Source: Mermis nigrescens
Lineage: Eukaryota > Nematoda > Enoplea > Mermithida > Mermithidae
Reading direction: 5' to 3'
Assembly (NCBI GenBank): GCA_036768485.1
Contig: JAVLUZ010000339.1
Location: 1,031,001-1,095,000, forward strand
DNA length: 64,000 bases
The stretch's first letter is position 1. Every line of letters begins with the position of its first letter. The notes beneath the pieces are model-generated. The model worked only from the letters and a program-made list of their open reading frames with translations, ran no database searches and was not told the DNA's origin. This document shows, piece by piece, positions 5,327-64,000 of this stretch. The position numbers and the translations under genes were made by a program.

Positions 5327-5993
5327 ATGGCTGAAAAAATTTTTTAAAGTAACTTTATGACTGGAGTTAGAAAAATTGTATCTCTTAGCTCGAAAATCTT
5401 CGAAGTTCGATTTTCCAGCGCTTCGCGTAGAAGGGTCAGCCAGGTCTTAAAGAGTAGGTCAATTGAAGCTTTTCAAACAAAATGGCCTTGAAAATGAATA
5501 GCTTCCATGTTTATATAGACAGCATAAAAAACTCCGTTATTTCGCAGCTTCTGGTACTTTAAGCTTATCGCATAAAATTTTGAATTTTGCCTTATTTTTC
5601 TTATGGAACTGAATCGAACCCCAAACCAAGCAATCCTGGTCGTCCCCACTTAACTCTATTGGCAGTTTTAAATAATTAAGCAAAGCTTTCAAGAAAAATA
5701 TTTATCGTCGAAGATCTACAAGATGTGCGAATGAAAAAAATGTTAATCACGCTTGTTTAACTTGAAATACAACTATACAAAACTACGACATAAGAGATAG
5801 ATTTCTTAAGATATCTGTAAAGACGAAATCTGATTTTATTGCACAACTTGTGCCTTATGCAGTCAATTCACTTTAAAAGAATACAGCTCAAACACTGGCA
5901 GCAGCCGATTTCTGGGAGTCTGGATGGTGTAAGACTGGCTAAAATTCCAAAATTCAATCTTGGGGTCTACCGGATTCTCGGTAGGCTCTATCC
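5327..5993. other. Unannotated spacer
   Basis: AT-rich sequence with no supportable gene. A fragment near 5420 (CAGCGCTTCGCGTAG) resembles the dispersed GGCGC-GAA-GCGCC palindrome in a degenerate form. No element borders could be placed. Confidence 0.4.
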
Positions 5994-6223
5994 CTACCTG
6001 GGCGAGGGGGTTTGGGGTATGCATCCCCCAGAAACAAAAAATACCCCCCCAGAATTCAATTTTTGAAATCTTTTTTTTTGCAATTTTTTGATGCCAATGG
6101 ACAGTGCTCGATGAGAAACGTTGAAAGATAGTGTTCTTTTCCGCCATACCACCATTTTTGAGGACATTTTTTGACCTTTGAAAAAATCCAGCACCTCCAG
6201 AAGTTTGTTTCCGCCCACTTATG
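5994..6223 (-). mobile_element. Family A MITE, copy 2
   Basis: The full family A body is recognisable in reverse orientation, running from TACCTGGGCG to CGCCCACTTATG. The flanking octamers CTCTATCC and GTCTATGC match at 6 of 8 positions, consistent with an older insertion whose duplication has mutated. Confidence 0.8.
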
Positions 6224-6786
6224 GTCTATGCCCCAAAGTTCACGTGTGATGCAGCTCAAGACAATACGTATTTCACTACAAGATAACTTTTTCCCTAGTC
6301 CCCTCCTTTTTAAGTCCTTAATGATGCGTAATTCCAAGTATATTCGTCCTTTTTGTTCCGTTGGAGCATTTTTCTTTGCAAGTATCAATATATACAGCCT
6401 GATACATATTTATCTACATTACTATTATTTATTTAATTAAGTATAATTTATTTCTTAATAAGCTTATCTTTCTATCAAATTATTTATAACTCGCATCAAA
6501 ATCCATTTTTCGTTCTACTAATTAATTAATTCCTTTGTTTATAATTTATTTTTTATACTAAAATCTAAATCATGTAAAAATTGACTTACAGGACTATTTT
6601 ATCAGAGTCAATCGTATGAAAACGATAGAAATGCTGAAACAACAAAGTAAAAATGATGCAAATAAAAATTTATAAAAAGCAGCGCGGCAAAATTATTCTT
6701 GAGATGATAATGAACAGCAACGAAGCAGAAAGCGCGTAAAAACACATATTTACATAACAAGCAATAAAAAATGGGACATATGTACG
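6224..6786. other. AT-rich spacer, nothing recognised
   Basis: Highly AT-rich DNA with runs such as TAATTAATTAATT. No coding potential and no repeat boundary could be supported. Confidence 0.4.
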
Positions 6787-7581
6787 CAGGGGCGTAACAA
6801 CCAGCCGTGGGCGGGTGGGAGGTCCGCCCCCGAAATAAAAAAATAGTTTTATTTTTCACAAGGGTCCCCCAGAGGAAAAAATTAAAAATTCTCGAAGTCC
6901 TACTAAAAGGACAGCCAAAATGCTTTTCTAGCAAATTTTTGAACTACTAAACTCAATATTATCCGGCGCTTCACGCCGTATTTCATATTACTATCTTATT
7001 TCTTACCTTAGAAGCCCAGATTTGACTTAAACATAGCGAACATGTCAAAAATTTTCGGAGCTTCGCGCCGATTTATTATTTTCTTCATTAGTTTCCTTTG
7101 CAAAACCGCAAAATTAAATGCAAAGACAAGTATTTCGAAATGAGTCAAGCTTTAGCTTTATATTGAGAGATAAGTCGCACAGATAGGTGGGCGGCACCAA
7201 AGTTCTGGGGGGTGCAAGATTTTTTTCAAAAGTCAAAAAATGGCCTTAAAAATAGTAATATGGCGCAAAAACACCATTTTTCAACGGTTCTCATCGAGCA
7301 CTATCCAATCGGCCTCAAAGAATTGCGAAAAAAACAAAAATTTCAAAAATTGAATTCTAGGGGGTATTGTGATTTCTGAGGGTTGCATACCCCTCAAACC
7401 CCTTTCACGCCCAGGTATGGTCGTACAGATAGCTTAAAGGATAGATTCTTGATATCCAAGTTTGAAATCAAGCAAGAAAATTTTCTTGCGCCATTATTTT
7501 CGCGTATCTCCTGACTGTTCTCGACACATAGAACTTCAAAAATTTCGCCCCCCCCAAAATAAAATCCTGCTTACGCCCCTG
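6787..7581. mobile_element. Family B element with a nested family A copy
   Basis: Family B elements start CAGGCCCGTATCCAGG or CAGGGGCGTAAC and end with CCCCCCGAAATAAAATCC and the reverse complement of the start. Here the ends are CAGGGGCGTAACAACCAG and ATCCTGCTTACGCCCCTG. The left flank TATGTACG recurs on the right within TATATATGTACG, which suggests an 8-bp target duplication altered by TA slippage. The interior carries the family's GGCGC..GCGCC palindromes near 6964 and 7057. A family A copy (7182-7419) is inserted in it. No coding capacity. Confidence 0.75.
7182..7419 (+). mobile_element. Family A MITE, copy 3, nested in family B
   Basis: Runs from GATAGGTGGGCGG to GCCCAGGTATG, flanked by GTCGCACA and GTCGTACA (7 of 8 match). 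Its position inside a family B element shows that this family A insertion is the younger event. Confidence 0.87.
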
Positions 7582-8060
7582 TATATATGTACGTATAAAT
7601 AAGTCGATCGTGCATACACAAAGTTGAATGGCGAGGAATGAAATAGAAAGTCGAATCAGATTCATCGCATCCATCGTCTACATAAAGATTTCTACTGGTC
7701 TAAAAAAGGACGAATAAATTTTGTTATCATTAAAATAGTAATTTTAATGAACATTACATGATTCTTTTCGACCGCTGCGAGATCGAAATCACCAGAATCG
7801 GGCACGTGGTAAAAAGTAGGTCATGTATATATTTTCAAGGAGTAGTAAGGTGGTTAAAGAGTAATACTTTTAATATAATTGACAAAAGAAATTTTAGAAA
7901 AAAATTATAAAATTTATAAAAATAAAAAAATAAAAAGAGCTAAAAAGCAAAAAAAAAACTAAAACTGGTTTCACGAGTCTGAAATCTCTCAGGAGATTAT
8001 GTCAACCCTACTGGACATAAAATGTCGTTCAGCAAGTAATGAGGAGAATCTGAATTCGAG
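7582..8060. other. Spacer downstream of the 8.1-8.65 kb exon-like block
   Basis: AT-rich DNA with poly(A)-like runs. On the minus strand this would lie 3' of the exon-like block. No clear poly(A) signal, gene or repeat was identified. Confidence 0.35.
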
Positions 8061-8654: not shown

Positions 8655-8676
8655 TCCGTTCCAGACGTGTAGAAGC

Positions 8677-8915
8677 CATACTTGGGCGTGGGAGGGGGGG
8701 ATCGGGGTGCACCCCCCCCCGAGAAACTAAAGTACCCCCCAGAATTCAATTTTTGAAATTTTTGTTTTTTTCGCAAATTCTAGTTGCATGCCAATGAATA
8801 GTGCTCGGTGAGAAACGTTAAAAAAATTGTGTTTTTTCGCTCATACCAGCATTTCAAGGCCATTTTTTTGAAAAATCTTGCAACCCCTAGAATTTTTGCG
8901 CGCTGCCCAACTATG
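8677..8915 (-). mobile_element. Family A MITE, copy 4
   Basis: Runs from CATACTTGGGCGTG to GCCCAACTATG. The flanks GTAGAAGC (8669-8676) and GTAGCAGC (8916-8923) match at 7 of 8. It lies directly 5' of the minus-strand exon-like block, so it may separate that block from its upstream sequence. Confidence 0.87.
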
Positions 8916-8923
8916 GTAGCAGC

Positions 8924-13631: not shown

Positions 13632-14099
13632 GAGCACACATTCCCATAGGGGGGGAGGTGAGAGGGGTATTTATTACCCCTAACTCGGCGATGCAAGACT
13701 CAAATCACTGTCGGACGATTTTGGGCTATCAAAAAATTTTCCGCTTGATTTGTGGGTACGAAAGCAGCGAAGATGTTGAAATTTTTTCGGCGCTCGGCGC
13801 CGACTAATATTTCCGTTTTGTTTACCCATAAAATGCCTAGAATAGACTTAAAATGATCTTAAAAGTTTAAATTCCGTATTAATTCATATATTTTTCACTT
13901 ACGGAAATTGACGAAACTAGTCAGAGTTGGACAAAAAAGTTACTAAAAAAACTGTTTTTAACATTAAAACTGTTACATAGGATGTTTTAAGCATTTTTCA
14001 TATTTGACCTGCGGAAAAGGCTAGAACTCTAAATTTGGTCGTCCCAAATTTTTGGGATTTCACCCCCCCCCCCTTAAATTTTCGATTTTGGGAAACTAT
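13632..14099 (+). mobile_element. Family G element
   Basis: Runs from CACACATTCCCATAGGG to GGGAAACTATG; the terminal repeats are CACACATTCCC and CATAGTTTCCC. The flanks TTGAGGAG and TTAAGGAC match at 6 of 8. Other copies lie at about 24408-24893, 52868-53321 and, reversed, about 56330-56790. The copy at 52868 has a perfect 8-bp duplication and defines the ends. The interior carries a CGGCGC..GCGCCG palindrome near 13789. No protein. Confidence 0.75.
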
Positions 14100-14562
14100 G
14101 TTAAGGACTGAATCGTCCATTTTACAAAAATAAATGGCCCCAAAATCGATGGCTAACCTGCTAAGTTTATTATGCGAATTGCTCCTTTCGCGTATACAGC
14201 CAATGATACATAAAAGTAGATCGGACAAAACAGTGTAAACCAAAAATCTTACCGTAATGCATTCGGATAATATTTTGTATCTTTTATTAATTATCTCAAA
14301 TTAATTGACCGTATCATTAAAACAGGATGTACATATTCTGACATACTTTTTCCTTATAATAATTTTCTGGGGTCTAGATCCTCAGAATCGGAAATGGCAA
14401 ATTTTATTGGGAAAATAATGCAAAATAAAGGCCAAAAATAAACGAAAATTGAAAATTTGTTTAAAAAGTATTTTAAATTAACCTGAAAATGCATAATAAT
14501 GTATTACCAGTTTTTGAGGTCATTTCGACCAAAAAAAACTTAATTTTTGACCTCCCACAAAC

Positions 14563-16769: not shown

Positions 16770-17156
16770 TCTACTATATACTTTTGAAAGTTTGTTTGTT
16801 TGTATGTTTGTGCCGGGTTGGCTCCGGCCCAATGAAATTTGGTGGGCTGATATTTTGGGCCGAGGTCGGTCCAATGGGGGAAGGAGCCGTAGCGATCATT
16901 AAATTTCGACAAATGCTCCCATTGGCCCTGGGCAGAGGAGGGAGCAGGGTTTGGCCCTGTGCTATAAGCCTCCACGATTTCGGGAGATGGCCGATTTTTT
17001 GCTATTTTTTCCAAAAATTAGTTTGTACTGTTTGTATAGGGATACCCCGGCCAAGAGGAGCATGCCTGGCAGCAGTATGTACATTGTTATATGTTATAGC
17101 ATTGGTCGGCACTGTGAAACATCAAAATACGGGTTTAACCAAATGATGCTATAACA

Positions 17157-17500
17157 TAGGCAATTTTATAAGATAGGCATGGTATGAGATACTATGTGCA
17201 ACAAGATAAGCAATGCTATAAGATAGGACGTGATATAAGATACTCTGTGCTACAGGATAGGCAATACTATAAGATAGGACGTGATATAAGACACCCCGTG
17301 CTACAAGATAGGCAATGCTATAAGATAGAACGTTATAAAAGATACCCCGTGCTACAAGATAGGCAATGCTATAAGATAGGAAGTGATATAAGATACCCCG
17401 AGCTGCAAGATAGGCAATGTTATAAGATAGTATGGGATATAAGATACCCTGTGCTACGAGATAGGCAATGCTATAAGATAGGTTTGGTATAGATACACCT
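17157..17500 (+). repeat. 51-bp minisatellite inside the Helitron
   Basis: About seven tandem units contain AGGCAATGCTATAAGATAGG and GATATAAGATACCCCGTGCT. The unit is 51 bp, divisible by three and free of stops in some frames, so it produces repetitive open frames on both strands. Those are by-products of the repeat, not genes. Degenerate units continue to about 17580. Confidence 0.9.
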
Positions 17501-24407: not shown

Positions 24408-24893
24408 GCACATATTCCACATGAGAGGGGGAGGTGAGAGGGGTATTTATCGCCCCTACCTCTGGCGAATCCAAGACTCAAATCACTGTCGGACGATTTT
24501 GGGCTATCGGTGGACTTTCCGCACGATTTCACGGGTTTCGCAAGCGGCGAAGAATGTTGAAATTTTTCGGCGCTTGGCGCCGTACTAATACATTTCCGTT
24601 TTGTTTGCCCAAAAATGCCTAGAATAAGAAGTTAAAAATGAGCTGAAAAGTTTGAACTTCGTATTAATTCATGTACATTTTTTACTTACAAAGTTGACGA
24701 AACTAGTCAGAATTGGACATAAAGTACTAAAAAATTCAGTTTTTCACATTCACTTCTGTCTGCCGAGGATGTTTTGAGCATTTTTCATCATATTTGACCC
24801 GCGAAAAAAGGCTAGAAATTCCTAAATTTGGTCGTCCCAAATTTTGGGATTTCACCCCCTATAAATTTTCGATTTTGGGAAACTATGTTAAGG
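24408..24893 (+). mobile_element. Family G element
   Basis: Runs from GCACATATTCCACATGAG to GGGAAACTATG. It is the ortholog, within segment Y, of 13632-14099. It contains a CGGCGCTTGGCGCCG palindrome at 24568-24582. Confidence 0.75.
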
Positions 24894-31991: not shown

Positions 31992-32435
31992 CGGTGTTTT
32001 TTTGTGTTCGGCAAAGATTTTTCCCGATGTGCAAAGACTTCGGGGACCGTCTTTGTACATGTGCAAGGAATTTTCGTTAGATAAAAGTGCAAAAAGGGTT
32101 CGGAAATTCGCAAAAATTTCGGGCGCTTCGCGCCGAATGCGTAATTGTGCGGTCTTTGTATCGTCATACTGTCAGAAATTGCATTTGGAAAGAGAAAATG
32201 TCAAAGTTTTCAGCGCTTCGCGCCGTTTTGAGACGGTTATTAGTGATTTTTGCCCTCAGAAGCCGGAAATTAGCTCAAATACACTACCAACGGTCGAACA
32301 ACTCTGTTTTTGCCACACTAAAATCGCTACTGTATCATATTATAGCACCCAAAATCTATGAGTACAAATGTACAAAGGCTTTTAAGGATCATCTTTGTAC
32401 ATGAACAAACGGACATTGTACAAAAAAAAACACTG
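31992..32435 (-). mobile_element. Family F hAT-type element
   Basis: Family F ends are CAGTGTTTTTTTTGTAC and its complement. Here they are CGGTGTTTTTTTGTG and GTACAAAAAAAAACACTG. Inside are repeated TTTGTAC and GTACAAAG palindromic motifs, two CGGCGCTTCGCGCCG-type palindromes (near 32121 and 32211), and a conserved block CACACTAAAATCGCTACTGTA. No target duplication is visible, because both flanks appear rearranged. Confidence 0.75.

Positions 32436-33018: not shown

Positions 33019-35760
<2,742 letters not shown>

Positions 35761-35838
<78 letters not shown>
35761..35838. repeat. (TA)n microsatellite, right arm
   Basis: Thirty-nine TA units start immediately after the family B element and end 15 bp before the splice donor of the adjacent minus-strand exon. 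Confidence 0.98.
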
Positions 35839-37725: not shown

Positions 37726-38231
37726 GTGTACTCATTTGACTACGAGCAGTATAATAAAATAAAGTTGATTGCTAAAATTAGGGTGGCCACTGGTTTCCCA
37801 AAATAAAATTTCCGGGTTTTTCCCGGGTTTCCCGGGTGATTTATGGACAATTTCCCGGTTTTAAATCATGCTTTAAACGCACACTATATACGAAGAAGTG
37901 TCATGATAAGAACATGAAAAAGGATAAGGCACAAGCAACTTGTAATCAAACAAATGCAAATACTACACGAAACGTTTTGGAACAATCATAATTTCTTTTT
38001 CAATGATGCTAACGAGTTGTCGATAGCAGTTTTCACAGCCTATAATATAGTACAGTAGCGATTTTAGTGTGGCGAAACAGGATTTTCGATCTTTGGTTGT
38101 AATTCAGCTAATTTCTGGGTTTCTCACGCCTAAAATTACTAAAAATTGACTCAAAACGGCGCGAAGCGCCGGAAAATTTGGCATTTTTCCATTCTAGATG
38201 TAAATTCTGTCATTTTAAAGATATATAGGAT

Positions 38232-39290
38232 CAGTGGCGGATCTAGAATTTTCTTAAGGGGGGGGGGGGGCGGTATCCCAACTTTTCCAGAAAAAGTCAA
38301 AAATAGGTCCAAAAATTTGCTCATAATGCGCAAAATGGCGTTTTTTCGGTGTTTTAGGTTGTATACTTTTACATAAGATCACCTGACGCAATATTCTTTC
38401 TAAAAAATTTAAAAATTTTAGACAATTTTGTGCGAAAAAATCATTAAATTTCTTTGTCTTCAAGGAAAAATCTGGCGCGAAGCGCCGAAAAGTTTGTGAA
38501 ATCAAGGCGGATAGACGTCTAGAAGCATGATTTACTGCTTGATTTCCTGTATTTATACCATTTGATGCGAAACCTCGAAATTTTTAATTGAAAAAAAGAA
38601 GAAAACTATGCAAAAATAGATGTTAAAATTGTTTTAAAACATACATGCACAGAAAATGGCTTCCAGGCAGTGTTTCTTTTGTACAAGGTCCGTTTGTACA
38701 TATACAAAGATGGTCCCTAAAAGTCTTTGTACATTTTGTACACAAAAACTTTTGGATACTATGATATAGTACGGTAGCGACTTAAGTGTGGTGAAAACAG
38801 ACTTGTTCGACCTTTAGTAGTGAATTTTGGCTAATTCCTGGTTTTATGAGGGCAAAAATCATTAAGAGTCGTCTTAAAACGGCGCGAAGCGCCGAAAAAT
38901 TCGACATTTTTCCTTTCGAAGTGTGATTTCTGCTATTATAAAGATATATAGGACACACAATTCCTCATTACGGCGCGAAGCGCCGAAAATTATTGCGAAT
39001 TTCAGACCTTTTTGCGGTTTTTGTCTTCCCGAAAATCTTTGTACATCTACAAAGATGGTCCCGAAAATTCTTTGTACATCGGGAAAAATCTTTGCCAAAT
39101 ACAAAAAAACGTGCTTCCATGTCGCCAAGGAAGTAAATAAATGTCATTAATAGGTATCATCCGGCGCGTAGCGCCGGAAAAATTTGAGAAGTTATGGTCA
39201 CTGACGGCCAAAAATCATTGCAAATTGCTTATCCATTCTTTATCTCGCCAAATATTTTTTTGGCCAATGGGGCGACCGCACCCCCACCGC
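38232..39290 (+). mobile_element. Family C long element, interrupted by family F
   Basis: Starts CAGTGGCGGATCTAGAATTTTC and matches the 46191-46810 element in reverse order. The far end (CCAATGGGGCGACCGC) is recognisable but its terminal repeat is missing. It is split by the family F element at 38668-39113. Confidence 0.75.
38668..39113 (-). mobile_element. Family F element, empty site known
   Basis: Starts CAGTGTTTCTTTTGTAC and ends ATACAAAAAAACGTG. The flanks CTTCCAGG (38660-38667) and CTTCCATG (39114-39121) match at 7 of 8. The unsplit family C copy at 46191-46810 shows the empty site (CCTGGAAG on the plus strand, 46379-46386). Inside are two GGCGCGAAGCGCC palindromes and paired CTTTGTACAT motifs. 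Confidence 0.92.
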
Positions 39291-39934
39291 CCCTTGTCTT
39301 CCCGAAAATCTTCCCAAAACCAGAGTTGATTGACTTTTGATAGGGTATTTTAGCTAATTTCTGAGTCTTTAGGGGCAAAAATCACTAAGAATCGTCTTAA
39401 AACGGCGCGAAGCGCCGAAAAATTTGATATTTTACCCTTTGAAATGCAATCTCTGCCATTATAAAGATATATAGAACACACAATTATTCATTTCGGCGCT
39501 AAGCGCCTAAAATTTTTGCAAATTTCAGACCTCTTTTGCAATTAAAGTCTTCACAAAAATCTTTGTACATAGGTAAAAATCGTTACCGAGTACAAAAAAA
39601 CACTGTTGCAAAAACGTCTTAGCTAACAATAGTACAAATAGCAACATCAAACAAAGAGAATACACAAATAGCAATCAACGATGTGATAATTTGCGAGAAG
39701 AAAAACGGAAATAAATGCTACATGATAAAATATAAAAACTCGTAAACTAGTATGATACTAAAAGTGATAAAAAATTTAACATTGTACTATTAATTCAATA
39801 TTTTTGGCCTCCAAAAACTGAGTTCAAACTGAATTTCTTGACGAAAATCCCGGGTTTTTCCCGGGTGCCGAAAAAATTCCCGGGCTTTTCCCGGGTTTCC
39901 CGGATTCCCGGGTGAGTGGCCACCCAGTAAAATG

Positions 39935-41460: not shown

Positions 41461-43226
41461 CAGTGATCGTACGGGGTCAGATTTTCACCCCCGATCGGGG
41501 TCGGGGTCGGGGATGAAAAACCCCGGTTTTTGGGGTCGGGGTCGGGGTCGGGGTTGAAGATTAACAATTAAGATTGCATGATTATATACCAATTTGAAAA
41601 GGATAAAAACGATACCTTCACTTGTTTGTAGAGCATACTAATAAAGCTGGTTATGTTCAACATTTTATTTTCATTCCAAGTTCAAACATGGTTTTAGCAA
41701 TTTAGCATTACTTTCAATTTTAATCACTAACCGCTCTCGCTTTTTCGTTTTCTTCCACAGTTTTTTCAGAACGGTTTTCTATGGCGCACTGATTGTAGAG
41801 GAGCCAATGGCGCGAAGCGCCGAAAATTTTCGAAATTTTTAGCGTTTTCATGTAAAATTTACGCCTTTCTATTGACAAACAGTTCGGAAATCATAAGTGG
41901 CGCAAAGCATCAAGAAATTCAGTCATATTTTACCGCCCTAAGACAATAATCGGCGGTGCTAAGCGCAGGAGAATTTTGACGTTTTTACTCTTTAAACTCA
42001 ATTTATACCGCTTAAATCATACAGAACAGATAAATCCAATTGCGGCGCGAAGCGCCGAAAATTTTTAAAAATTCCTAATCCTTTTACCTTTTCTGTCCTC
42101 CTAAAAATCTCTTTCAACATGTAGAACGAGATTGTACGGCTAGGGGTCTGGGGTGGCGCTCAAGCGCCCCCAGTGAGGTCCAGAGCAGAACCCCTGAAAA
42201 TTTTGTAAAAATGCACTCCAATTTTTAATTGGTAAAGTTAAAATTTTCGCAAATTGGCAAAATCTCGGTTCTGAATCAAGTCCAAAAAAACTCTAAATTG
42301 ATGAACACCTACACTGCACAAAACTTCTGAGCTGAAATGCGTTTTTCGACCTCTGCTAAGTATGTAGCGCAGCAACGGGTCGCAACCAATAAGTCATTGA
42401 AAGATGTATCAATTAGAATTTTGTTCTTACCATTTTCAGGCCCATTTGCGGCCTTCTTATTAACTAGTTCAGAAAACAGAAAATGCGCAAAAACATAAGA
42501 AAATTTGGCCTTTCCTTTCATTTGGAATAGAATTATGTGTCCTTGTAAAGAAAGATAAACAAAGCAGAGAATAGACAAATTGGTATGCAAACATTTTTCG
42601 CACTTTTACTATTATTTTCAACAAGCATGTGCAGTTTCATTCAATGAACTAATAGTGCATTAAATCACTAAAGTGCTGCGAAGTGCTGGATTATTTTAAC
42701 AGATTCAAGCTTTTAAATTCATTGGATCTGTATAACAATAAATAATAATGACTCGGCGCGAAGCGCCGGATAATTTCGACGTTTGTGCCTCTTTAAACTC
42801 AATGTTCTGGACACATTGCGCCAGAAAAATCAGCATAATTTCTGAAAAATTCCGGGGGGGCATGTGCCTGAAAAATTCCGGGGGGGGCATGTGCCACCAT
42901 TCCCCCGGCTACGTCTGTGATTCCGCAGTAATTTCGGCGCAATTCATAATGGAAAATATGCGAACATGTATGTACGTCTTGACAACATGGCGACCAGGCG
43001 TACTTTTTATGAAATATCGCGAGTGTCGAGTTTAACATATTAATTTTGCTGGTGAATGAATCGTCCTTGTTCCGAATTTATTTTTTGTTATTTTTACAAT
43101 TCTTCTATGTGCCAACAAATAAAATGCAATATTTCACCCCCGAAAAAGGTTCAACCCCGACTCGAAAAATCGGGGTCGGGGTTTAGGCCGGGGTTTTTCG
43201 GGGTCGGGGTCCCCGTACGATCACTG
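41461..43226. mobile_element. hAT-type element with GGGGTCGG-rich ends
   Basis: Has perfect 16-bp terminal inverted repeats, CAGTGATCGTACGGGG and CCCCGTACGATCACTG, and a perfect 8-bp duplication CTTTTAAT (41453-41460 and 43227-43234). Both subterminal regions are tandem GGGGTCGG / GGTCGGGGTTT repeats in opposite orientation. The 1766-bp interior holds three or four GGCGCGAAGCGCC palindromes (41809, 42044, 42755) and a pair of GAAAAATTCCGGGGGGG units near 42845-42890. No transposase was recognised, so it is classed as non-autonomous. Confidence 0.92.
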
Positions 43227-45040: not shown

Positions 45041-45760
45041 CAAGCCCGTATCCGGGATTTTATTTCGGGAGGGAGCCGCAAATTTTTAGAGGCTAGATAT
45101 CCCAAAAACCATTGAGATAGGCGATAAAAAGGCAGTTTTGAGCGTATCTCGACGAGTTCTATACGAAGATGAAGAAAAATTTCGAGAAAATTTGTCACCT
45201 TATTTCATATTGATTCGTATACAGCAAATTTATCATTTAAGCTGATATCTCCATCACTTAATCGACTAATCTTTTCCTTGTCTATTGCCTTTGTAATTAT
45301 TCATTGTGCTTTACAGAGAAAAACAATACAGATAATGAATCGCCAATAAATTAACATATTCTGCATGTCAAGTTCAAACTCAAGCGGTCCTGAGCGGGCT
45401 AGAAGACACAAAACAAATATAAACAATAAACACGGCGCGAAGCGCCGGAAAAATTCCATGTTTTCCTTTGCCATAAGTCAAGTTTGAGCTGTTTTGAGTG
45501 AACTAGAAGGCAAAAACCACAGCTGATCAATGAATCCGGTGCACAGCGCCGGATAAAAGTTGATATGCTCTCTATGTCTAACTCATATTTCAGCGATTTT
45601 TAGCGGTTTACTAGCTCAAAAGTACGCTAAAAACCTGTTTTGGCGGTGTTTTAGACAAACTTCGCTAATTTTTCATTTTTCCCTATGTAAACTTTAGAGA
45701 AAAATTTTTTTTTCATTTCGGGGGAGATGGGGCGGCCACCGCCCCCTGAATATGGGCCTG
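45041..45760 (-). mobile_element. Family B element
   Basis: Reversed relative to the copy at 34587. Starts CAAGCCCGTATCCGGG and ends ATATGGGCCTG. The flanks GTTACAAC and GTTTTAAT match at only 5 of 8, so the duplication is weak. It contains a CGGCGCGAAGCGCCGG palindrome at about 45433. Confidence 0.8.
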
Positions 45761-46190: not shown

Positions 46191-46810
46191 CAGGCGCGGA
46201 TTTAGGGGGAGGGGCGGGGGGGCGGCCGCCCTCCCCATTGGCCAAAAATATTTGGCGAGATAAAGAATGGATATGCAATTTGCAATGATTTTTGGCCGTC
46301 ATTGACCATAATTTCTCAAATTTTTCCGGCGCTACGCGCCGAATATCTGTTAATGACATTTACTTACTTTCTTGGCGACCTGGAAGCCATTTCCTGTTCA
46401 TGTATATAGGTTTAAAACAATTTTAACATCTATTTTTGCATAGTTTTCTTCTATTTTCAATTAAAAATTTCGAGGTTTCGCATCAAATGGTATTAATACA
46501 GGAAATCAAACAGAAATCATGCTTCTCGACGTCTATCCGCCTTAATTTTACAAATTTTCCGGCCTCCGCGCCAGATTTATGTGAAAGTCAAAGAAATTTT
46601 ATGATTTTTCGCACAGAATTGTCGAACATTGAAAAATCTTTCGAAAAAAATATTGCGTCAAAAGTGATTTTATGTAAAAGTATATAATGTAAAACACTGA
46701 AAAAACGCTATTTCGCGCGTTAACGGCAAATTTTCGGACCTATTTTTGATTGTTTTGGAAAAGTTGGGATATCGCCCCCCCCACTTAGGAAAATCCTAGA
46801 TCCGCCACTG
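46191..46810 (-). mobile_element. Family C long element, intact
   Basis: The ends are CAGGCGCGGATTTAGG and CCTAGATCCGCCACTG. It has a perfect 8-bp duplication TGTGCATG (46183-46190 and 46811-46818). At 620 bp it is the unsplit form of the element at 38232. It includes two CGGCGC..GCGCCG palindromes and the empty site of the family F insertion found in the other copy. Confidence 0.94.
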
Positions 46811-48221: not shown

Positions 48222-51032
48222 TTACGAGGCGGATTTTTTGTCAAGGCTACAAACTGACATTTGAAACTGTTTATCGATTATTTCCGCCTCGTCCGAATCG
48301 CAGCTACTATCCTCCTCCTCATCCTCGTCCGACGTCATCAAATTGTTCTGATTTTGTTGCGGTACGTTTCCCGTAGTTTTGTCAACAATACTGTCTCGTC
48401 GGGTCGCCTGACAGACCCCAGAAGAAACGACCCTACTGGCTCCATCAGTCTGATATTGAGACGGCGATCCTGCTTCCATCTTATAGTCATTATTGACGAT
48501 CGATTCGTCGGGTTGAATAGGGGTGCTGCTCGGATGCTGCGGAGGGAGCCAAAATTGAGGGGCGGCGGGGTAAAAGGGCATGTTGTAATACGGGGGCATG
48601 TAGCCCATGTTTGGTATAATCATAGGGGGCATAGTTGACCCCTGTTGCCCGGCGTTGGTCGGGCTAAAAGGGCCCAAATTCACCGACGCATTCGGTAATT
48701 TGGCCGATGACCCGGAAGTTGGCGCAGTGCCAGGCGGTTGCATCGGCTGAGGAAAACCGAATGGGGCGCCGAAATTCGGCTGATACATCGGGTAATTCGC
48801 CCAAAACTGGCGTTGGTACTCGGCCATTAATTTTAAAGCATTTTGATGCTGTTGTTGCTTCGCCTTGTCGTCGTCGGCGAACGTTAAATCGACAGAGCTA
48901 CAATTCAAGGCACTCGAGAGGGAGGTGCTCAGCAAAGAGGAGGGGGTGTTACGCAGGGTTTTACCACCCCCACCACTGCTACTGCGACTGGTGAAGCCGT
49001 TGTTGATGTGCTTTTTTTGGTAATTTTTGGCCCTATTCTTTAAACGAGCGCTGAAAGCGCTCTGGCTCTCACCCTTTCGATTTTCGCTGCGGGCCGAACT
49101 ACCGGCCAATCTCTGCTTCTCTTCCAACGGGCTCAACGTTATCCCGCGTTCGTCGTTGGACGAAATTTTGCCACCATCGTCCGAATTTAGCAATTGGGTT
49201 TCTTTGCCGACCGAATTATCGTTTTTGTGGCCGTAACAGAGATAACAATGCGATCGGAAAGTTCGCCTGAGGCGATCGAAGGATTTGCGTAGTAAAACCA
49301 GCCAGACCCGTAAAATTCCCGTTCCAAACAACAACGATACGTCGGTGATAAGAGTGCAGGCGAAAAAGGTGAAAATATGCAAATGAATGAGTCGAATGTC
49401 GGGTCGATTTTTAAGCACGCAATGTTGATCGTCCAATAAATTATTATTATTATTGTTACTGCCCGATCTTTTAATCTGGCATATTAAATAATCGATTAGC
49501 GATTGCTTATGCACTTCCGGGTCAAAATTGTTCGACAAAGTTTGAATGCACCAGGCTGTCAATAAAGCCAAACAATGAATGAGATAAAATAAAAACAACT
49601 TCAAGCTGGACAGATAGGCGTTGACGTCAAAATAGACGCCCGAATTGTTTACAATCTGCCGCCGGTGGTTCAATTTGATTCGTTGTAAAAGCCCAACGCA
49701 ATACAGTAGGACGGATAGGGCGAGCAATACTGTGATGGGAGTGTAAACGAACGCGATAGATAGCCACGGTTCGGAATAGCCGATGAAGCAAAGTCCCGAA
49801 ATGCCGTCCGCCTCCACTTTTCCGCCCGACAACGGATAAATGACCAGAACGATGGGCAACGCCCACGTCAGGTGCAACCAGGCCATTTTGTTATTTTGGA
49901 ACAAAAAATCGATCCGCTTTTTCGATTCGACGTTGAATAGATAGAGGTAGCAGCCGAAAACGCACAGCCAAACGGCCGAGCCCAACAGGCCGCAGTAGAG
50001 GCAGAAAAATTGGGCGACGCAGGCGTAATTCTGCTCGCGGGCCATTTCGAATTTCCGTAAACTGCCGTCTTCCCGGCACACGATGAGTCGGCGGACTGTA
50101 GGATAAATTTGCAGCGCCCAGCAGCCGATGACCATCAGGTGGCAGGCGAGGTACCAGCAGAGGGGTCTGTTCAGGCATTTTTGCATCAGGAGGCGATCGG
50201 GCGACTTGGGGTCGGTTCCGTGGGTGGTAAGCAGGAGCGAAATCCAGACGAAAAGAGTCAGTGTAAAGAAGACAATGACCAAGAAGTGGACAAACCCGCG
50301 GAGGTTGTCGTGCTCGGATTCGGTCAACGCGTGGCTGGTGCAGTTGGGGGCGCAGTGGGGCATGGGGAACCAGCCGGGTTCGAATTTGGAAGCGACCAAC
50401 GGATGGACGCATTTGCGGTCACCGGATGGATTGAACGAAAGGTTATCGCCGTTGTGCAACAGGGATTGATAGGAGCACGAGTCGGTGAAAATCGATTTGT
50501 CCGAGCAATTTCGCAGTTCGACGGGCCAGAGGTCGGAATTTTCGATCAAAAATCGACATTTTTGTTTGGCCTTCAGGCACAAGTCCCGGGCCACCAATCG
50601 GACTTTGTTCGATTCTTTGCACGGGGCGAACTGTATCGAGCAAATGAGTTCGCGCAATAAGGGCCAACAGTCGGGCAGTCCCGAAAAATCCTTCGATAAA
50701 GCGTCCTGTACGGTGATTGGGTCGTTTTGTGAAGATTTTGTCGGTCCGGTCCAGGCCAGTGACAAATGGGCATAATGCACTTTGGTGCCGAAACAAAATA
50801 GCTCGTCGTTTTGCTGGACCGGTTCGCATAATTGGTGCGATAGCTCGGTGTAACAATCAGCCTCTTTAAACCAAGGCCTCGGTTTAAACCTATTACGGTA
50901 TTTAGACGAATAGTTGAATTTAGGCAAATTGGTTTTGGAGCTAGTAAGTTCGAATGAATAAATTAGGACGGTATTAATCAAGAATAAAAGCATCCAAAGC
51001 TCATTTGTACAAAATGCATCAATTTTGAGCAT
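48222..51032 (-). CDS. smo: Smoothened, Hedgehog signal transducer (class F GPCR)
   Basis: Smoothened is the seven-pass membrane protein that passes the Hedgehog signal, released from Patched inhibition, to the Gli/Ci branch. From ATG at 51032 the protein has 936 residues. In order: a hydrophobic signal peptide (about 10-28); a Frizzled-type cysteine-rich domain (about 60-186, cysteines at 60, 69, 80, 122, 131, 138, 152, 159, 176, 186); seven membrane helices (about 246-268, 290-309, 339-367, 383-400, 424-450, 475-497, 550-580); and a long hydrophilic tail. CREDGSLR before helix 3 and VEADGISGLCFIGY before helix 5 separate Smoothened from ordinary Frizzled receptors. The third extracellular loop holds an N6 run (NNNNNN, about 526-531). 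The tail has Ser/Asn/Pro-rich stretches and a strongly acidic end (DEDEEEDSS). All coding is in one exon. Translation could be extended 6 codons upstream only by running over a splice acceptor, so the ATG at 51032 is preferred. The open frame shows no breaks. Confidence 0.95.
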   Translation of the reverse strand: MLKIDAFCTNELWMLLFLINTVLIYSFELTSSKTNLPKFNYSSKYRNRFKPRPWFKEADCYTELSHQLCEPVQQNDELFCFGTKVHYAHLSLAWTGPTKSSQNDPITVQDALSKDFSGLPDCWPLLRELICSIQFAPCKESNKVRLVARDLCLKAKQKCRFLIENSDLWPVELRNCSDKSIFTDSCSYQSLLHNGDNLSFNPSGDRKCVHPLVASKFEPGWFPMPHCAPNCTSHALTESEHDNLRGFVHFLVIVFFTLTLFVWISLLLTTHGTDPKSPDRLLMQKCLNRPLCWYLACHLMVIGCWALQIYPTVRRLIVCREDGSLRKFEMAREQNYACVAQFFCLYCGLLGSAVWLCVFGCYLYLFNVESKKRIDFLFQNNKMAWLHLTWALPIVLVIYPLSGGKVEADGISGLCFIGYSEPWLSIAFVYTPITVLLALSVLLYCVGLLQRIKLNHRRQIVNNSGVYFDVNAYLSSLKLFLFYLIHCLALLTAWCIQTLSNNFDPEVHKQSLIDYLICQIKRSGSNNNNNNLLDDQHCVLKNRPDIRLIHLHIFTFFACTLITDVSLLFGTGILRVWLVLLRKSFDRLRRTFRSHCYLCYGHKNDNSVGKETQLLNSDDGGKISSNDERGITLSPLEEKQRLAGSSARSENRKGESQSAFSARLKNRAKNYQKKHINNGFTSRSSSGGGGKTLRNTPSSLLSTSLSSALNCSSVDLTFADDDKAKQQQHQNALKLMAEYQRQFWANYPMYQPNFGAPFGFPQPMQPPGTAPTSGSSAKLPNASVNLGPFSPTNAGQQGSTMPPMIIPNMGYMPPYYNMPFYPAAPQFWLPPQHPSSTPIQPDESIVNNDYKMEAGSPSQYQTDGASRVVSSGVCQATRRDSIVDKTTGNVPQQNQNNLMTSDEDEEEDSSCDSDEAEIIDKQFQMSVCSLDKKSAS

Positions 51033-51060
51033 AGGTTCCCTGGAATACACAAATATTAAA
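51033..51060 (-). promoter_or_regulatory. Splice acceptor in the Smoothened 5' UTR
   Basis: On the minus strand a T-rich tract ending TGTGTATTCCAG (AG at 51041-51040) is followed by GGAACCT and the ATG. This is a good acceptor consensus, so the coding exon is probably exon 2 and a non-coding first exon and promoter lie further right. Confidence 0.7.
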
Positions 51061-51091
51061 AAAACAAGTCATAATATGGGGAAGGTATCAA

Positions 51092-51531: not shown

Positions 51532-52832
51532 TACCCATGCATTGAATATTCAATGAATCGACGCTTAGCAGTATGTAGATACCTACACAACGGGTGCAGT
51601 AGGAAATTCGAGAGGGCTTTTCGATTAATATATCAAATATGAATGGATTAAAAAATTGCTCAAAATTTAGCCGTAATTACGTCTTATTCTTCATTGGAAA
51701 TTCAGGAAATTGTCATTTTGTTGATACAAAAAAAAACGCAAAAAATTTCTATTAAAAATTTCATTTTTTGCCCAAAATTGAAAGAGAAGTAAAGATTTCT
51801 GAATTTTGGGGCATGGAAGGCGGCGCCTTGTGTCTCAGTAAGATCCTCAACGCCCGTTACAATATTAAGTTTGACCAATATATACTTCGATCCGTAAGTT
51901 AAAGGTCAAGTCGCTTATAAAATACATTCACTGCAGGTATATACAGCAAATTGAAATTAAGATTCGCTCAATGAATAAGGAATGAGTGAAAAATTATTAC
52001 ACACAGCCCTCCAGAATTAGCGATTTTTCGAAAGTTTCCAAAAATTTTAAAAATTTGTAGAAAAGATATCTTTTACTTTTATAACAATCTATTTGCTAAA
52101 AATTGTCAAATTTTCGGTGCTTCGCGCCATATATTTATGTTATGACTATAGTTTGTCCAATTTATTTGACTTTTTGATATTTTTCCAAAAATTTCTGTTT
52201 TTATGCCTTAGAAAGATAGAGCATCGTCAGAAACGCCGAAAAACGATGTTTTTGACGCGTACCAATCATTATTGGCCTCAAAAAAGGCACTTTAAAATTT
52301 CACACACACCTCAGCATTCCCATGCTGTGCGTGTCAGACACATATTTAAAAAGTTGTGGAGGGACCCTGTAAAAGAATGTTCTCTTATTAGCTTCTTTGC
52401 CCATTATATTTCTGAAACGGATGATCTGTTCGCTTCCTGAACGATTCAGTTGACTTGGAGTAACAGAGAAATATTAGAAATATTCAATGCCATTCATTAT
52501 GTGTTGTTCACAGAGGAATATTTTCGACAGAGCAAATAATTTCAGTGTGAAATAATACGCAAACATATCAGCAATTAAAAATAGTTATTTATGTAATGCA
52601 CATGGGCAACTGAATAACGCAGAGCAGATGCCGATCATAAATTTTATAAATACAAATTTTGATAAAAAAAATCAGCAATTATAAAGTCGGGCATTAGCGG
52701 AAATTTGAATTTAGGCATACACTAAATCTTTCAAGATGCGTTTTTAGGATGTTTCAATTCGCCTTCAAATATACATAATTATATGCATTTCCCCGTTTTA
52801 AAGGGGGTAGGAAGCATACATAGACAGAAGCA
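51532..52832. other. Region 5' of Smoothened, family E copy, no gene recognised
   Basis: It should contain part of the first intron and perhaps the promoter and first exon of Smoothened, but no donor, exon or core promoter could be identified with confidence. At about 52010-52345 a reversed family E copy is present (GGTGCTTCGCGCC, CAGCATTCCCATGCTG). Confidence 0.45.
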
Positions 52833-52867
52833 GGCCCGTAACTGGGGGGCACAGGGAGACTCGCCCC

Positions 52868-53321
52868 CACACATTCCCGTAGGGGGTGAGGGGGGGTATT
52901 ACCCCCACCTCAGGGTCCGAGACTTGAATCACTGTCAGACGATTTTGAGCTATCAAACGTTTTCTGCAATGATTTTTGGGTACAAAAGCAGCGCAGAGGT
53001 TAAAATTTTTTCGGCGCTTCGCGCCGACTAGTACATTTCTGTTTTATTTACCCATAAAATACCTAGAATGAAGTTAAAATGATCTGAAAAGTCAAAATTT
53101 TCGATAAATTCTTATATTTTTTACTTACAAGAGTGACGAAAGTAGTCAAAATGGGACAAAAAGTTAGTTAAAAATGCAGTTTTTCACATTAAAACATGCT
53201 ATATAGGATGTTTTAAGCGTTTTGCATATTTGACCTGCAAAAAAGGCTAGAAATCTAAATTAAGTGGTCTCAAATTTCGGTATTTCACCGCCCTCTGAAC
53301 TTTCGACCTTGGGAAACTATG
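52868..53321 (+). mobile_element. Family G element with perfect duplication
   Basis: Runs from CACACATTCCCGTAGG to CCTTGGGAAACTATG. It has a perfect 8-bp duplication CTCGCCCC (52860-52867 and 53322-53329). This copy fixes the ends of family G. A CGGCGCTTCGCGCCG palindrome lies at 53012-53026. Confidence 0.9.
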
Positions 53322-53399
53322 CTCGCCCCCATTTTTCACCAGGGCCACCCAAGAAGAAAAAATTAGAAGTTCTTGAAGTCAATCAAGACGACTACTAAA

Positions 53400-55302: not shown

Positions 55303-55310
55303 TGTAGGGG

Positions 55311-56100
55311 AAGGCCCGTAACTAGGGGGGTGGGGGCGGACTCCCCTTCGGAATGGGAAAAAATTTATGTTTTTTTCTAAGAATCCCCCAGAGAAAAATG
55401 AAAAATTGGCGAAGTGCGTCTGAAACACCGCCAAAACAGGTTCAGCGTACTTTTGAGCTAGTACACTCAAAATTTTCCGGCGCTTCGCGCTGGATTTATT
55501 GTTTATGTATGCTTTTGTCTTCTAAACCGCTAAAAATCGTTCAAATTTGAGATGGATATAGAGAGCATCTTAATTTTTTCCGGCGCGTGCGCCGGATTCG
55601 TTGTTCAGCTATAGTTTTTGCCTTCTATCTCACTCAAAACAGCTCAAATTTGAGTTATGACTTGGAAAACATAAAATTTTTCCGGCGCTTCGCGCCATAT
55701 TTATTGTTTATATTTGTTTTTCGTCTTCTAGCCCGCTCGAAACCGTTTAAATTTGAGCTTGATATTGCAGAATAGGTCAATTTTTTGGCGCTTAGCGACG
55801 AATTATTCAAATATTGTTTTTCTCTGTAGAGAGCAGTGATTAAGTACAAAGGCAAGAGATAAGCAATAATCCATTGATTAAGTGATGAGAAAGCAGCTTG
55901 AATGATTTATTTGCTGGATATCAATATGAAATAGATACAAAAAATTTTAAATTTTGTAGTAAAAGTTTTTTCACCATTGAATAGAGCTCGCCGAGATACG
56001 CTCAAAACTGCCCTTATTTGAGCCCATCTCTTAATGATTCTCGAGATATCTGACCTCGAAAATTTTCGCCCCCCCAAATAGAATCCTTGTTACGGGCCTG
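55311..56100 (+). mobile_element. Family B element
   Basis: Starts AAGGCCCGTAACTAGG and ends CCTTGTTACGGGCCTG. The flanks TGTAGGGG (55303-55310) and TGTAGGGT (56101-56108) match at 7 of 8. The interior parallels 34962-35760 and has four palindromes of the GGCGC..GCGCC type (about 55479, 55580, 55683, 55790). Confidence 0.92.
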
Positions 56101-56309: not shown

Positions 56310-57287
56310 CAGGCACGTAGCTGTGGGGGACAGGGGGGCTAGTCACAGTTTCCCAAGGTCGAAAGGTCAGGGGGTGATATCCCAAAATTTAGGACCACTA
56401 AATTTAGAGTCTAACCTTTTTTGCAGGTCAAATATGAAAATGGCTAAAACTTCCTATATAGCATGTTTTAATATGAAAAACTGCATTTTTAACTAATTTT
56501 TGTCCCATTATAACTAGTTTCGTCCCTCTTGTGAGTAAAAATATCAGAATTCATCGAAAATTTTGACTTTTCAGATCTTTTTAAGTTTATTCGAGGTATT
56601 CTATGGGTAAACAAAACAGAAATGTATTAGTGCGCCGAAAAAATTTTAATATCTTCGCTGCTTTTGTACCCAAAAATCATACAGAAAATGTTTGGTAGCT
56701 CAAATCATCCGACAGTGATTCAAGTCTCGGACCCTGAGGTGGGGGTAATACCCCCTCACTCCCCATAAGAATATGTGAGACTGGGTCTTCCAAAGGAAAA
56801 AGGTTAAATCTCTTGGAGCGCATTTGAAAGACTGATATAATAAATTCTAGCACACTTTCGAACTAATGAGCCCAGTATTTTCTGGCGCTTAGCACCAAAT
56901 TTATTGTTTTTGTATAACTTTTGTCATCCGAACAGCCCAATTTTGAGTAAGACACAATGAATATATTAAAATTTTCTGACGCGTTGCGCAAAATGATTTA
57001 ATTTTTGTACCTAATGCTTTTCTTTGCAATACTACCAGAATTTGTACAGAAAAAATTAGGCAATTTCGCAGCGGAGTCAAATGTTTAGAAAGACATTTTT
57101 TAGAATGTGATTAAGATGAAGTCAAATTGTTAGAATTTTTTTAGCAAATTTTTTCTTGTCCAGTGTGTAGAGCTCACTGAGAAACACTCAAAAACTTTAT
57201 TATTTTTGCCTGCCAACAAGTAGTTGTTAGGATACCTGACTTAAAATTTTAGTCTCAACCAAATTCAGAAGGCTAGCTACGTGTCTG
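56310..57287 (-). mobile_element. Composite element with family D ends
   Basis: The ends are CAGGCACGTAGCTG and AGCTACGTGTCTG. The flanks CACTTAAA (56302-56309) and TACTTAAG (57288-57295) match at 6 of 8. The interior begins with a reversed family G element (about 56330-56790) and continues with family B-like sequence. It is therefore a 978-bp element whose ends are D-type and whose interior is B-type, suggesting families B and D share one lineage. Confidence 0.75.
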
Positions 57288-59930: not shown

Positions 59931-59969
59931 GAAGTAACAGCCCCTTTCACCCCTACCCATGCCCACAGA

Positions 59970-60356: not shown

Positions 60357-60364
60357 CCCACAGA

Positions 60365-62271: not shown

Positions 62272-62448
62272 CGCGGATCAAGGTGGGGCAAGGGATGGGG
62301 GAGGGGGGCGGCCGCTAAAAACCCTTTTTGAAAATGTTTTGGCAGCAGATATACAATGGAATGTGGAATGCACCCAAAATTGAGCTAAAAACGCCAAAAC
62401 GAAAAAAGTTTTGGCGCTCCTCATTATTTTTTATTTTAGTGTTCCAGC
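62272..62448 (+). mobile_element. Family C element, left part
   Basis: Starts CAGGCGCGGATCAAGG with G-rich sequence following, as in the copy at 46191. It is interrupted at 62449 by a family F element and probably continues after 63201, but its right end was not located. Confidence 0.6.
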
Positions 62449-63193
62449 CACTGTTTTTTTTTTGTACGAGACAAAGATTTTGAGGCTCGTACAAAGATTT
62501 TCGGAGCCATCTTTGTACAATGTACAAAGACTTTTGGGGCAAAGTAATAGTAATTTTAACGTTTTTTGGAGTATTTTTTAGCAAACTTTCTAAAAATTTT
62601 CGGCGCTTCGCGCCGAGTATCATAATTACATTCTATTTAGCTCCAAGCGCGGGCATTTAACTCTCCAAAATCTATCTGTAAGCATCTTTGTACTGATTGA
62701 AGCATCTTTTACATCTATTTCCACTGTTTTATAAAGATTTTATGTAGAAAAAAGAAGTATTAAACAACTTTGCACTGTTTTCTGCCGTTTGAAGATAAAA
62801 TTGACTCTTTTATCTTTGCGTTGCATTAAATTCATAAGCAAATTGGTGTCTATTATGAGATTCAGTCAGCACATTGCAACCGCTTATTATTTATAATTGT
62901 GTAACACAAGTCATTTTAACTTGCTGAGTCGAATTTTATGTGTAATTTCAACCTAAGACTCATGAAAATTTTGGCGTTTCGGGCCGAACTAATATAACCA
63001 GCTGAATTTAAAACAAAGTTACACCTTTTGCGAAGCGTGCGGGTCACAGATAACAATCTATTAGTATGTAAAAATGTGTACATTCAATTGCATATCTATA
63101 CGTTATATGTACAAAAAATTTTTCGCTCGTACAAAGACTTTTCCGGAGATCTTTGTACATGTACAAAAGAGGCTCGTACAAAAAAAAACAGTG
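62449..63193. mobile_element. Family F element, well-preserved ends
   Basis: Terminal repeats CACTGTTTTTTTTTTGTACG and, complemented, CACTGTTTTTTTTTGTACG, each followed by AG, are nearly identical over about 21 bp. It has a perfect 8-bp duplication GTTCCAGC (62441-62448 and 63194-63201). Just inside both ends the motifs GTACAAAGA and TCTTTGTAC alternate as inverted pairs. One CGGCGCTTCGCGCCG palindrome lies at 62601-62615. 745 bp, no protein. Confidence 0.94.
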
Positions 63194-63201
63194 GTTCCAG
63201 C

Positions 63202-63589
63202 ATTGTGTTTAAAGCAGTCAAAATATTCCAGTGCTTCAGTGATTTGATGAACTATATTATTTATTGGTTGAAACTCTAAACGCTTGTTGGACATCGTGTT
63301 AAAGGTGTGTGCCATTTATTGGCAATTTTTCGTTTCGTTTTGTTTTTCAGCTCAGAACGCATTTCAAAGCAAGAATTTATAATGGTTTGTAAGTATGAAA
63401 AGGCTGGTTAACTGTTTTTAAGCTGAGTTTAAAACCATAATTCGGCCGATTTTGTGAAAGTTTCAAAGTTACATTCAACATTTCATTTTACAAAATTTTC
63501 CTGGGCTTAGCCTTGGGTCCCGCTGGGAGCGTTTGAGCGCATCCCCAGAAAGCAAGGGTGTTTCTTGCATTTTTTCGTGTCCAAGGAAT
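63202..63589. other. Spacer, possibly the remainder of the interrupted family C element
   Basis: Directly follows the right target duplication of the family F element at 62449. AT-rich, with no terminal repeat and no gene recognised. Confidence 0.4.
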
Positions 63590-64000
63590 AGTCAGGTAAT
63601 GTAAATGTGTGACCTGACCTGACCAATGATTTTTGTGTACTCGGCAACAATTTCTCACAATGTACAAAGACTTTTTGGGACCATCTTTGTACATAAACAA
63701 AGATTTTTGGGAAGACAAAAATTGCAAAAAAAGGTCTGAAATTCGCAAAAATTTTCTGCGCTTCGCGCCGAAATGAGTAATTGTGTGTACCCATAATATC
63801 TTTATAATAGCGAAATTGCATTTCGAAAGAAAAATGTCAAATTTTCGGCCTTCGCGCCGTTTAGGACAATTCTTATTAATTTTTGCCTTCAGAAACATAG
63901 AAATTAGCTAAAATACACTACCAAAAGTTGAACGACTCCGTTTTTACCACACTAAAATCGCTACTGTACCATTTTATAGCACCTAAATTTGTGTGTACAG
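63590..64000 (-). mobile_element. Family F element, runs off the window
   Basis: Matches 31992-32435 in order: GTGTACTCGGCAAC, TGTACAAAGAC, two GCGCTTCGCGCC-type palindromes (about 63767 and 63848), then CACACTAAAATCGCTACTGTA. The end is outside the window. Confidence 0.8.

Follow-up and report, generated by a model that had tools for sequence, protein, structure and literature searches.

Why should one short G+C-rich palindrome recur in transposon families whose ends differ? The question is raised by a 64-kb stretch of the nematode Mermis nigrescens (contig JAVLUZ010000339.1, positions 1,031,001 to 1,095,000; hereafter "the window," to which coordinates refer), where a hairpin with the core GGCGCGAAGCGCC is carried by several families of DNA elements, labeled F1, F2, and so on. 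A sequence-only reading of this DNA had drawn attention to the palindrome. Two features unforeseen there form our main results. In F1 and F5, landed copies decay almost freely while the hairpin is kept in lineages still moving, so that the constraint acts before insertion rather than after it. The hairpin is also an exact landing site for F1 elements, a new finding.

The exact 15-mer CGGCGCGAAGCGCCG occurs 12 times in the window (7 on the plus strand and 5 on the minus strand), and the core occurs 17 times. Allowing up to two mismatches to the 15-mer gave 37 matches at 35 sites, since 39162 and 46327 match on both strands, compared to means of 0 and 0.15 in 20 first-order and 20 third-order Markov resamplings, respectively. 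This is consistent with the several dozen copies reported earlier. The loop variants named at that time are likewise present (GTA at 39162, CAA on the minus strand at 24568 and 26851, and CGA at 13788); the copy placed at 5418 exists but is weak, with three mismatches. Genome-wide (523,963,438 bases, 860 contigs), the count that had been proposed as a check returned 22,715 exact 15-mers, and a control, the pattern read backwards, returned none.

Local density was compared with 250 kb of other sequence, comprising 20 stretches of contig C11 and 5 of contig C265 (314 kb together with the window). The 21-mer GGCGCGAAGCGCCGAAAATTT, at up to five mismatches, was found 127 times in the 250 kb (in 23 of the 25 stretches; 5.1 per 10 kb) and 48 times in the window (7.5 per 10 kb), and exact 15-mers numbered 22 and 12, respectively. 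The window is somewhat enriched for the hairpin relative to this sequence. Extrapolation from the 25 stretches of two contigs would put the genome load at roughly a quarter of a million loose 21-mer copies. A pattern scan of viral contigs returned no matches, and one of prokaryote genomes returned two, both in bacterial-looking contigs. A literature search for the motif found no paper, and of 53 papers containing the heptamer and the word hairpin, none of the 10 listed concerned transposons, judging by titles.

Beyond the palindrome the module is asymmetric. An ungapped profile of 169 copies reads Y-GGCGCGAAGCGCC-R-AAAWTTTT..TTT, and the same asymmetry (Y, the stem-loop-stem, then RAAAWTTTT and TTT) appears in a set picked by the stem alone, in which orientation had been assigned from the AT flank. 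That set holds 213 stem matches, part of which are due to chance, since a backward-motif control gave 35 matches at the same loose threshold; 54 that could not be assigned an orientation were left out. The 159 oriented matches that were kept form 36 flank clusters (sizes 72, 26, 10, 6, 5, 4, and smaller, with 26 singletons), which rules out one recent family as the sole cause of the motif's frequency, as the sequence-only reading had suspected. Between families, the hairpin is conserved far better than its surroundings.

Other properties attributed to the motif did not survive. CpG-rich motifs had been expected to decay here, making intact copies a sign of selection; the CpG observed/expected ratio over the 314 kb is 1.06, so no such decay is to be expected, and the argument is ruled out. 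The suggestion that stems are kept while loops change is likewise excluded by the equal conservation of the two across the 213 copies (0.83, 0.87, and 0.92 at the loop positions versus 0.81 to 0.91 at the five inner stem pairs). The loop is GAA in 144 of the 213, with AAA (15), TAA (8), and CAA (4) as variants. The heptamer d(GCGAAGC) is an extra-stable DNA mini-hairpin whose sheared G.A loop pair needs the loop G. The heptamer here is identical, with the difference that its loop G is not specially conserved: it changes most among the loop bases, and more often than the last A (213 copies), which gives no clear support to mini-hairpin stability as the relevant property.

Pairing itself does leave a trace, in agreement with the covariation that had been proposed as a further check. 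With one copy per flank cluster (61), the five inner pairs show 17 compensatory changes versus 8.5 expected (P = 0.002), a figure to be read with kinship between flank clusters in mind, and all 213 copies show 23 versus 9.2. A slid-pairing control, run on pairs 2 to 4 only, gave no excess in the 61, and one of four slides reached P = 0.045 in the 213. In a looser earlier set (69 flank clusters, six pairs) the signal was weaker (24 versus 15.8, shuffle maximum 26); discarding sites at which the AAAATTT flank suited the opposite side no worse, which took copies from 228 to 213 and clusters from 69 to 61, made the result stronger. As single-stranded DNA, the hairpin folds into a 6-bp stem at -7.2 kcal/mol. 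The six-pair stem, its compensatory changes, and its presence in families with different ends would all suit a cruciform or hairpin that acts in a host process (replication, fork stalling, chromatin, or gap repair), helping any carrier with no transposase binding. We regard this as somewhat unlikely, because the oriented single-base insertion described below, with no mirror-site cases, points to a sequence-specific contact and not to a symmetric structure. Covariation fits RNA as well as DNA, and element transcripts might need the stem-loop for processing, stability, or small-RNA avoidance. Such a role seems most improbable, given that the families are DNA elements with target site duplications (TSDs), that no Rfam family reaches its gathering score within the window, and that insertion into the hairpin acts at the DNA level.

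Families were delimited by self-comparison and copy alignments: F1 (two hairpins 91 bp apart), F2, F3 (~103-bp units), F4, F5, and F6 (Table 1). Distances between neighboring hairpins on the same strand cluster at 88 to 92 bp, a range that takes in 29 pairs, 16 of which are exactly 91 bp apart. When the hairpin was replaced by N and eight family sequences were compared by blastn and nhmmer, with 160 shuffled sequences in the database, the surviving links were F1-F6 (E = 7e-7), F1-F7, through an end region in common, and F2-F3, a weak match close to the ends. Masked F4, F5, and F8 had no match to any other family better than the shuffles. Most family pairs thus appear unrelated once the hairpin is masked, and the earlier observation that one module is common to several families with different terminal inverted repeats (TIRs) is borne out.

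When the constraint acts was read from trees of F1 (29 copies) and F5 (31 copies), on which parsimony changes were mapped. The columns under test were excluded from tree building, columns with gaps in over half of the copies were omitted from the counts, and control blocks of 15 columns (23 in F1 and 14 in F5) were taken from the rest of the same elements, each omitted from its own tree. The F1 hairpins had 44 terminal and 2 internal changes versus 574 and 127 in the control blocks, and the F5 hairpins had 39 and 2 versus 525 and 208. Pooled, 4 of 87 hairpin changes were internal, compared to 335 of 1,434 in controls (one-sided Fisher P = 3.3e-6; P = 4.3e-6 for G/C columns alone), and none of 3,542 control-block triplets had as few internal changes as the hairpins. 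Terminal changes per column were near those of the surroundings (F1, 1.47 versus 1.56; F5, 2.60 versus 2.36; for G/C columns alone, 1.50 versus 2.00 and 2.83 versus 2.62), which disfavors a mutation cold spot or postinsertion gene conversion. Private changes counted without a tree were slightly lower in hairpins (F1, 2.3% versus 2.9%; F5, 2.5% versus 3.2%), so that a mild postinsertion effect is possible. Decay after landing together with retention in mobile lineages tells against landed copies serving the host and favors a role in propagation. The idea that the hairpin moves on its own found no support: the two damaged copies inspected by eye (F4 at 56334 and F3 at 45041) show ragged deletions and no clean empty sites.

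The hairpin as an F1 landing site is seen most directly in exact junctions, GCGCGAAG followed at once by CAGTGTTTTT, of which the genome holds 52 and the controls none. Reading the upstream flanks of all 52 identified the host as F2 (32), F5 (12), F3 (2), F1 (1), or F7 (1), with four unrecognized. The F2-host junctions form three clusters at 88% flank identity, one with 30 copies, and the F5-host junctions form ten, one of the twelve matching F5 weakly; the 52 junctions represent about 21 events if the eight in F3, F1, F7, and unrecognized hosts count as separate. Divergence among four of the F5 flanks (identity 0.71 to 0.79) matches that among random F5 copies (median 0.74), so these are separate insertions. 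By reading of the end strings, at least 47 of the 52 junctions carry the F1 left end and one carries the right end; a stricter scripted rule counted 34. When the distance from GGCGCG to the junction was allowed to vary from 0 to 12 bases, 18 of 20 matches, which overlap the 52 junctions, fell at a single one of the 13 offsets, and 15 of these were GAAG. Opposite-strand reading gave nine scattered matches, two of them with the element reversed at the same 8-mer or at a variant differing by one letter, and none at the mirror position. The target is therefore asymmetric although the stem is symmetric, and symmetric cruciform targeting is ruled out.

Among sampled copies, five F1 elements start directly after the GCGCGAAG (or GCGCGGAG, GCGTGAAG, or GGGCGAAG) of a hairpin, four in F2 (L004, L008, L012, and L025) and one in F5 (L001). 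The duplicated target is GCGCGAAG at both ends in L008, the same with one mismatch in L012, and GGGCGAAG in L001. A script returned 88 loose matches to the F1 left end, 4 of them after a hairpin half; 21 to 22 were judged true by eye, with the addition of L001, whose end had escaped the script, and the fraction of F1 insertions in hairpins comes from this sample only. L004, L008, and L012 appear to form a single composite lineage, leaving about three events among the 21 to 22 left ends. In these three loci and in 30 of the 52 junctions, an F2 element with F1 in its first hairpin has apparently multiplied as a composite. A possible second hot spot lies around GGTACGCG in F5, where F1 is found in both orientations (L005 at 3915, L020 at about 2070, and L023 at 9702). 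Entry at this other G+C-rich F5 place in three loci would fit an F1 transposase that simply favors G+C-rich or palindromic sites, the hairpin being merely the commonest. We consider it very unlikely that this is all, as it leaves the single offset and the orientation, and the frozen internal branches of the F1 and F5 hairpins, unexplained.

Of the roles first suggested for the motif, a transposase or host-factor site appears to fit best. Specifically, the hairpin and its 3' flank may be a cis-acting recognition site for transposition in several hAT-like families that also attracts insertions, a reading to which we give about an even chance. Y-GGCGC-GAA-GCGCC-R-AAAWTTTT would be read in the donor element by a shared or related transposase, or by a host factor of the transposition complex. 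Lineages without the hairpin would cease to spread, so that it would be fixed on branches yielding new copies while landed copies decay. The same recognition would direct incoming F1 elements to existing hairpins, with insertion at one base pair and duplication of GCGCGAAG. One recognition by a transposition protein would account at once for the constraint seen in lineages that spread, for the presence of the hairpin in several families, and for self-targeting. That a single recognition event lies behind both conservation and targeting, that the protein is of the transposase type, and that the scheme is valid for other families, we infer.

The carriers are apparently hAT-like, nonautonomous, noncoding elements of the miniature inverted-repeat transposable element type. 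Full 8-bp TSDs were found in 4 of 19 F1, 1 of 2 F2, 2 of 5 F3, 4 of 13 F5, and 0 of 1 F4 copies, and 7/8 matches were found in four F1, one F3, and five F5 copies, scored with ends free to shift by up to 2 on each side and without a random control. Together with F6, 8-bp TSDs thus occur in five families, and the assignment of F4 is based on its ends. Short TIRs of the CAG..CTG type are present in F1 (CAGTGTTTTT; ends also given as CAGTGTTTTTTTGTAC), F2 (CAGTGGCGGA), F3 (CAGGCCCGTA), and F6 (CAGTGATCGTACGGGG). In 314 kb, F1 (~446 bp, 29 copies) and F5 (~400 bp, 31 copies) are short, bear TIRs, and are numerous; F6 is longer, at 1,766 bp. Stop-to-stop open frames of 138 to 156 codons coincide in part with copies of F1 and F3, and one of 274 codons lies in L016. 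The hAT dimerization domain is abundant in the genome, with all 150 scored sequences, of 3,147 candidates, matching. Three loci (L086, L087, and L090, the first two partly overlapping) hold 613-codon hAT transposase frames, with copies >99.6% identical over ~2 kb and TAGGGATGCACCG-type ends. They probably represent a recently active hAT family, and no hairpin was demonstrated inside the visible part.

A number of observations weigh against the recognition-site reading. Most F1 copies lie outside hairpins (about 5 of the 21 to 22 left ends accepted by eye lie within one). Textbook hAT subterminal sites lie near both ends; the hairpins here are in a single orientation within each window element, not subterminal at both ends, and sit ~120 to 210 bp from the nearer end in F1 to F5 and further in F6. 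F5 starts with CATACATG, unlike the F1 ends and outside the CAG..CTG type. P elements also produce 8-bp TSDs, and F5 could belong to another superfamily that makes them. Among the hAT transposase loci inspected (8 plus 8 further short stretches), there was no coding element with F1 to F6 ends; where visible, the ends were others (the TAGGGATGCACCG type), and no hairpin was demonstrated inside the element. In 3 of the 23 F1 control blocks, internal changes were no more numerous than in a hairpin block. Few internal changes were also seen in F1 at the AAATTTGACATTTTT flank (1), block 12 (1), AAAAATCTTTGTACA (0), and block 387 (2); constraint in F1 is thus not confined to the hairpin. The internal-branch test gave P = 0.30 in F4 (8 copies) and P = 0.75 in F3 (5 copies), numbers of copies too small to be informative. 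Hairpin divergence was not lowered in F2 (7 copies; 10.1% versus 10.6%) or F3 (5 copies; 9.3% versus 8.9%), and 1 of 2 F2 and 4 of 4 F3 hairpins rank around the middle or worse among 15-column windows. Finally, comparison of unmasked single copies matches F4 to a copy of F1 (71% over 148 columns, E = 1e-8) and F8 to an F5-type place (69% over 132 columns, E = 1e-7), and some of the families may thus share an older ancestry. The case is weakest at the protein and in the small families; F2 and F3 lend no support yet.

These last matches, the F2 and F3 divergence, and the homology of F1 and F6 units beyond the hairpin would also be expected if the hairpin were a functionless relic of an ancestral internal repeat (~90- to 103-bp unit) spread by recombination into elements with different ends. 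Spacing fits as well: 46 listed neighbor pairs, a few read twice on both strands, are spaced 85 to 105 bp apart. A relic, however, should change on internal branches like its surroundings, which the F1 and F5 hairpins do not, and most families have no detectable common sequence besides the hairpin and short flank. We therefore think such hitch-hiking unlikely.

Table 1. Hairpin-carrying elements and fragments in the window. TSD scores are matching bases out of eight.
Feature	Position	Strand	Hairpins	Ends, TSD, and relatives
F1 element	38668..39113	+	38880, 38971 (91 bp apart)	Inserted in F2; ends CAGTGTTTCT..AAAAAACGTG; flanks CTTCCAGG/CTTCCATG, 7/8
F1 element	31992..32435	-	32121, 32211	80% identity to 38668-39113; TSD unrecognizable (4/8)
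F1 element, cut by window end	63630..64000	-	63756; damaged one near 63846	82% identity to 38737-39109
F1 fragment	39315..39605	+	39403, 39494	
F1 fragment	38040..38230	+	38157	
F2 element	46191..46810	-	Variants near 46560 and at 46327	620 bp; ends CAGTGGCGGA..TCCGCGCCTG; TSD CATGCACA, 8/8
F2 element interrupted by F1	38232..39314 (right limit approximate)	+	38473, 39162 (GTA loop)	86-89% identity to 46210-46810, in two pieces
F3 element	34957..35760	-	35126, 35333, 35436	~103-bp units; ends CAGGCCCGTA..TACAGGCCTG; TSD unrecognized (3/8), adjoins AT repeats
F3 element	55310..56099	-	55478, 55683, 55786	TSD CCCTACAC, 8/8
F3 element	45041..45760	+	45433, 45537	TSD 5/8
Partial F3 copy (about 34586-34956), exact hairpin	34764..34778	-		
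F4 element (approximate limits)	52840..53340	-	53012	Relatives 13635-14100, 24430-24887, 56334-56777
F5 element core	52050..52330	-	52115	Relatives around 9153, 20902, 25797, 44660, 45812, 58222; ends CATACATGCA..ATCATGTATG and 8-bp TSDs seen in other copies
F6 element	41461..43226	+	41808, 41898, 41954, 42043, 42754 (hairpins or variants)	Perfect 16-bp TIR CAGTGATCGTACGGGG; TSD CTTTTAAT, 8/8
F7 (putative element), hairpin only	62601..62615	-		Seed region 62300-62900

The F2 host of the F1 element at 38668-39113 has an uninterrupted homologue at 46191-46810, and F6 has a 91% identical copy in contig C47 (TSD GTTAAAAG, 8/8). Near 37780, where a hAT-type element had been placed, the closest hairpin, at 38157, is part of an F1 fragment. 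F3 copies are flanked by perfect (AT)n arrays of ~100 and 78 bases, at 34486-34586 and 35761-35838. A very abundant element of ~260 bp, at 5059-5318 and at least 20 related window places, carries the phrase GATGAGAAACGTCGAAAAATGGTG at a fixed position; the phrase resembles a degenerate hairpin plus flank and is possibly a distant relative of the module. Elsewhere in the window are a tandem array at 17147-17482 (51-bp units, 6.6 copies, 86% matches) and, at 48222-51068 on the minus strand, a single open frame of 948 amino acids that matches Smoothened (Frizzled-type membrane region, with the Fz domain just under cutoff), which marks the DNA as animal. A separate protein search with this frame returned nothing.

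The hairpin has partial parallels in known systems. Short repeated motifs inside hAT elements, the subterminal repeats of Ac, Tol2, Tag1, and Herves, are known to bind transposase; unlike them, the motif here is a hairpin, lies further in, has one orientation, is common to families with different TIRs, and is known from sequence alone. The internal inverted repeats of P elements are transpositional enhancers, an internal site that raises transposition; the sequence here is different, its orientation is single, and the TIRs are mostly hAT-like. Bacterial REP (repetitive extragenic palindromic) palindromes are abundant, dispersed targets of site-specific insertion sequences (ISPpu9, ISPpu10, ISPsy8, and others), as described in one study (PMC1525189). 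As there, a conserved palindrome is an exact insertion target, an analogy of behavior and not of membership; in contrast, the setting is an animal, the hairpins are carried within other transposons, the invading family among them, and the invader leaves an 8-bp TSD. Plant long terminal repeat retrotransposons show nested insertion with a weak palindrome preference, according to a further report (PMC6911290). Nesting and palindrome bias are alike in the two cases, which differ in that the plant elements are retroelements and do not insert at one exact base pair.

To our knowledge, what nonautonomous DNA elements need internally, beyond their ends, is poorly known. Here the copy number suffices to tell selection in spreading lineages from decay after landing, the signal being one 15-bp hairpin in two families. 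It is possible, and we put it forward only tentatively, that landing and launching are served by one module: the hairpin would be a signal for the spread of several otherwise unrelated families and at the same time an address for F1, sending new insertions into older transposons, as an animal counterpart of REP palindromes. If so, selection on the hairpin would be visible as frozen internal branches with near-neutral tips, and F1 targeting would send new copies into existing repeats. In a genome of 524.2 Mb in 867 scaffolds, 83.98% of it repeats according to the genome report (PMC10989877), insertion of F1 into existing repeats could help the genome bear that load.

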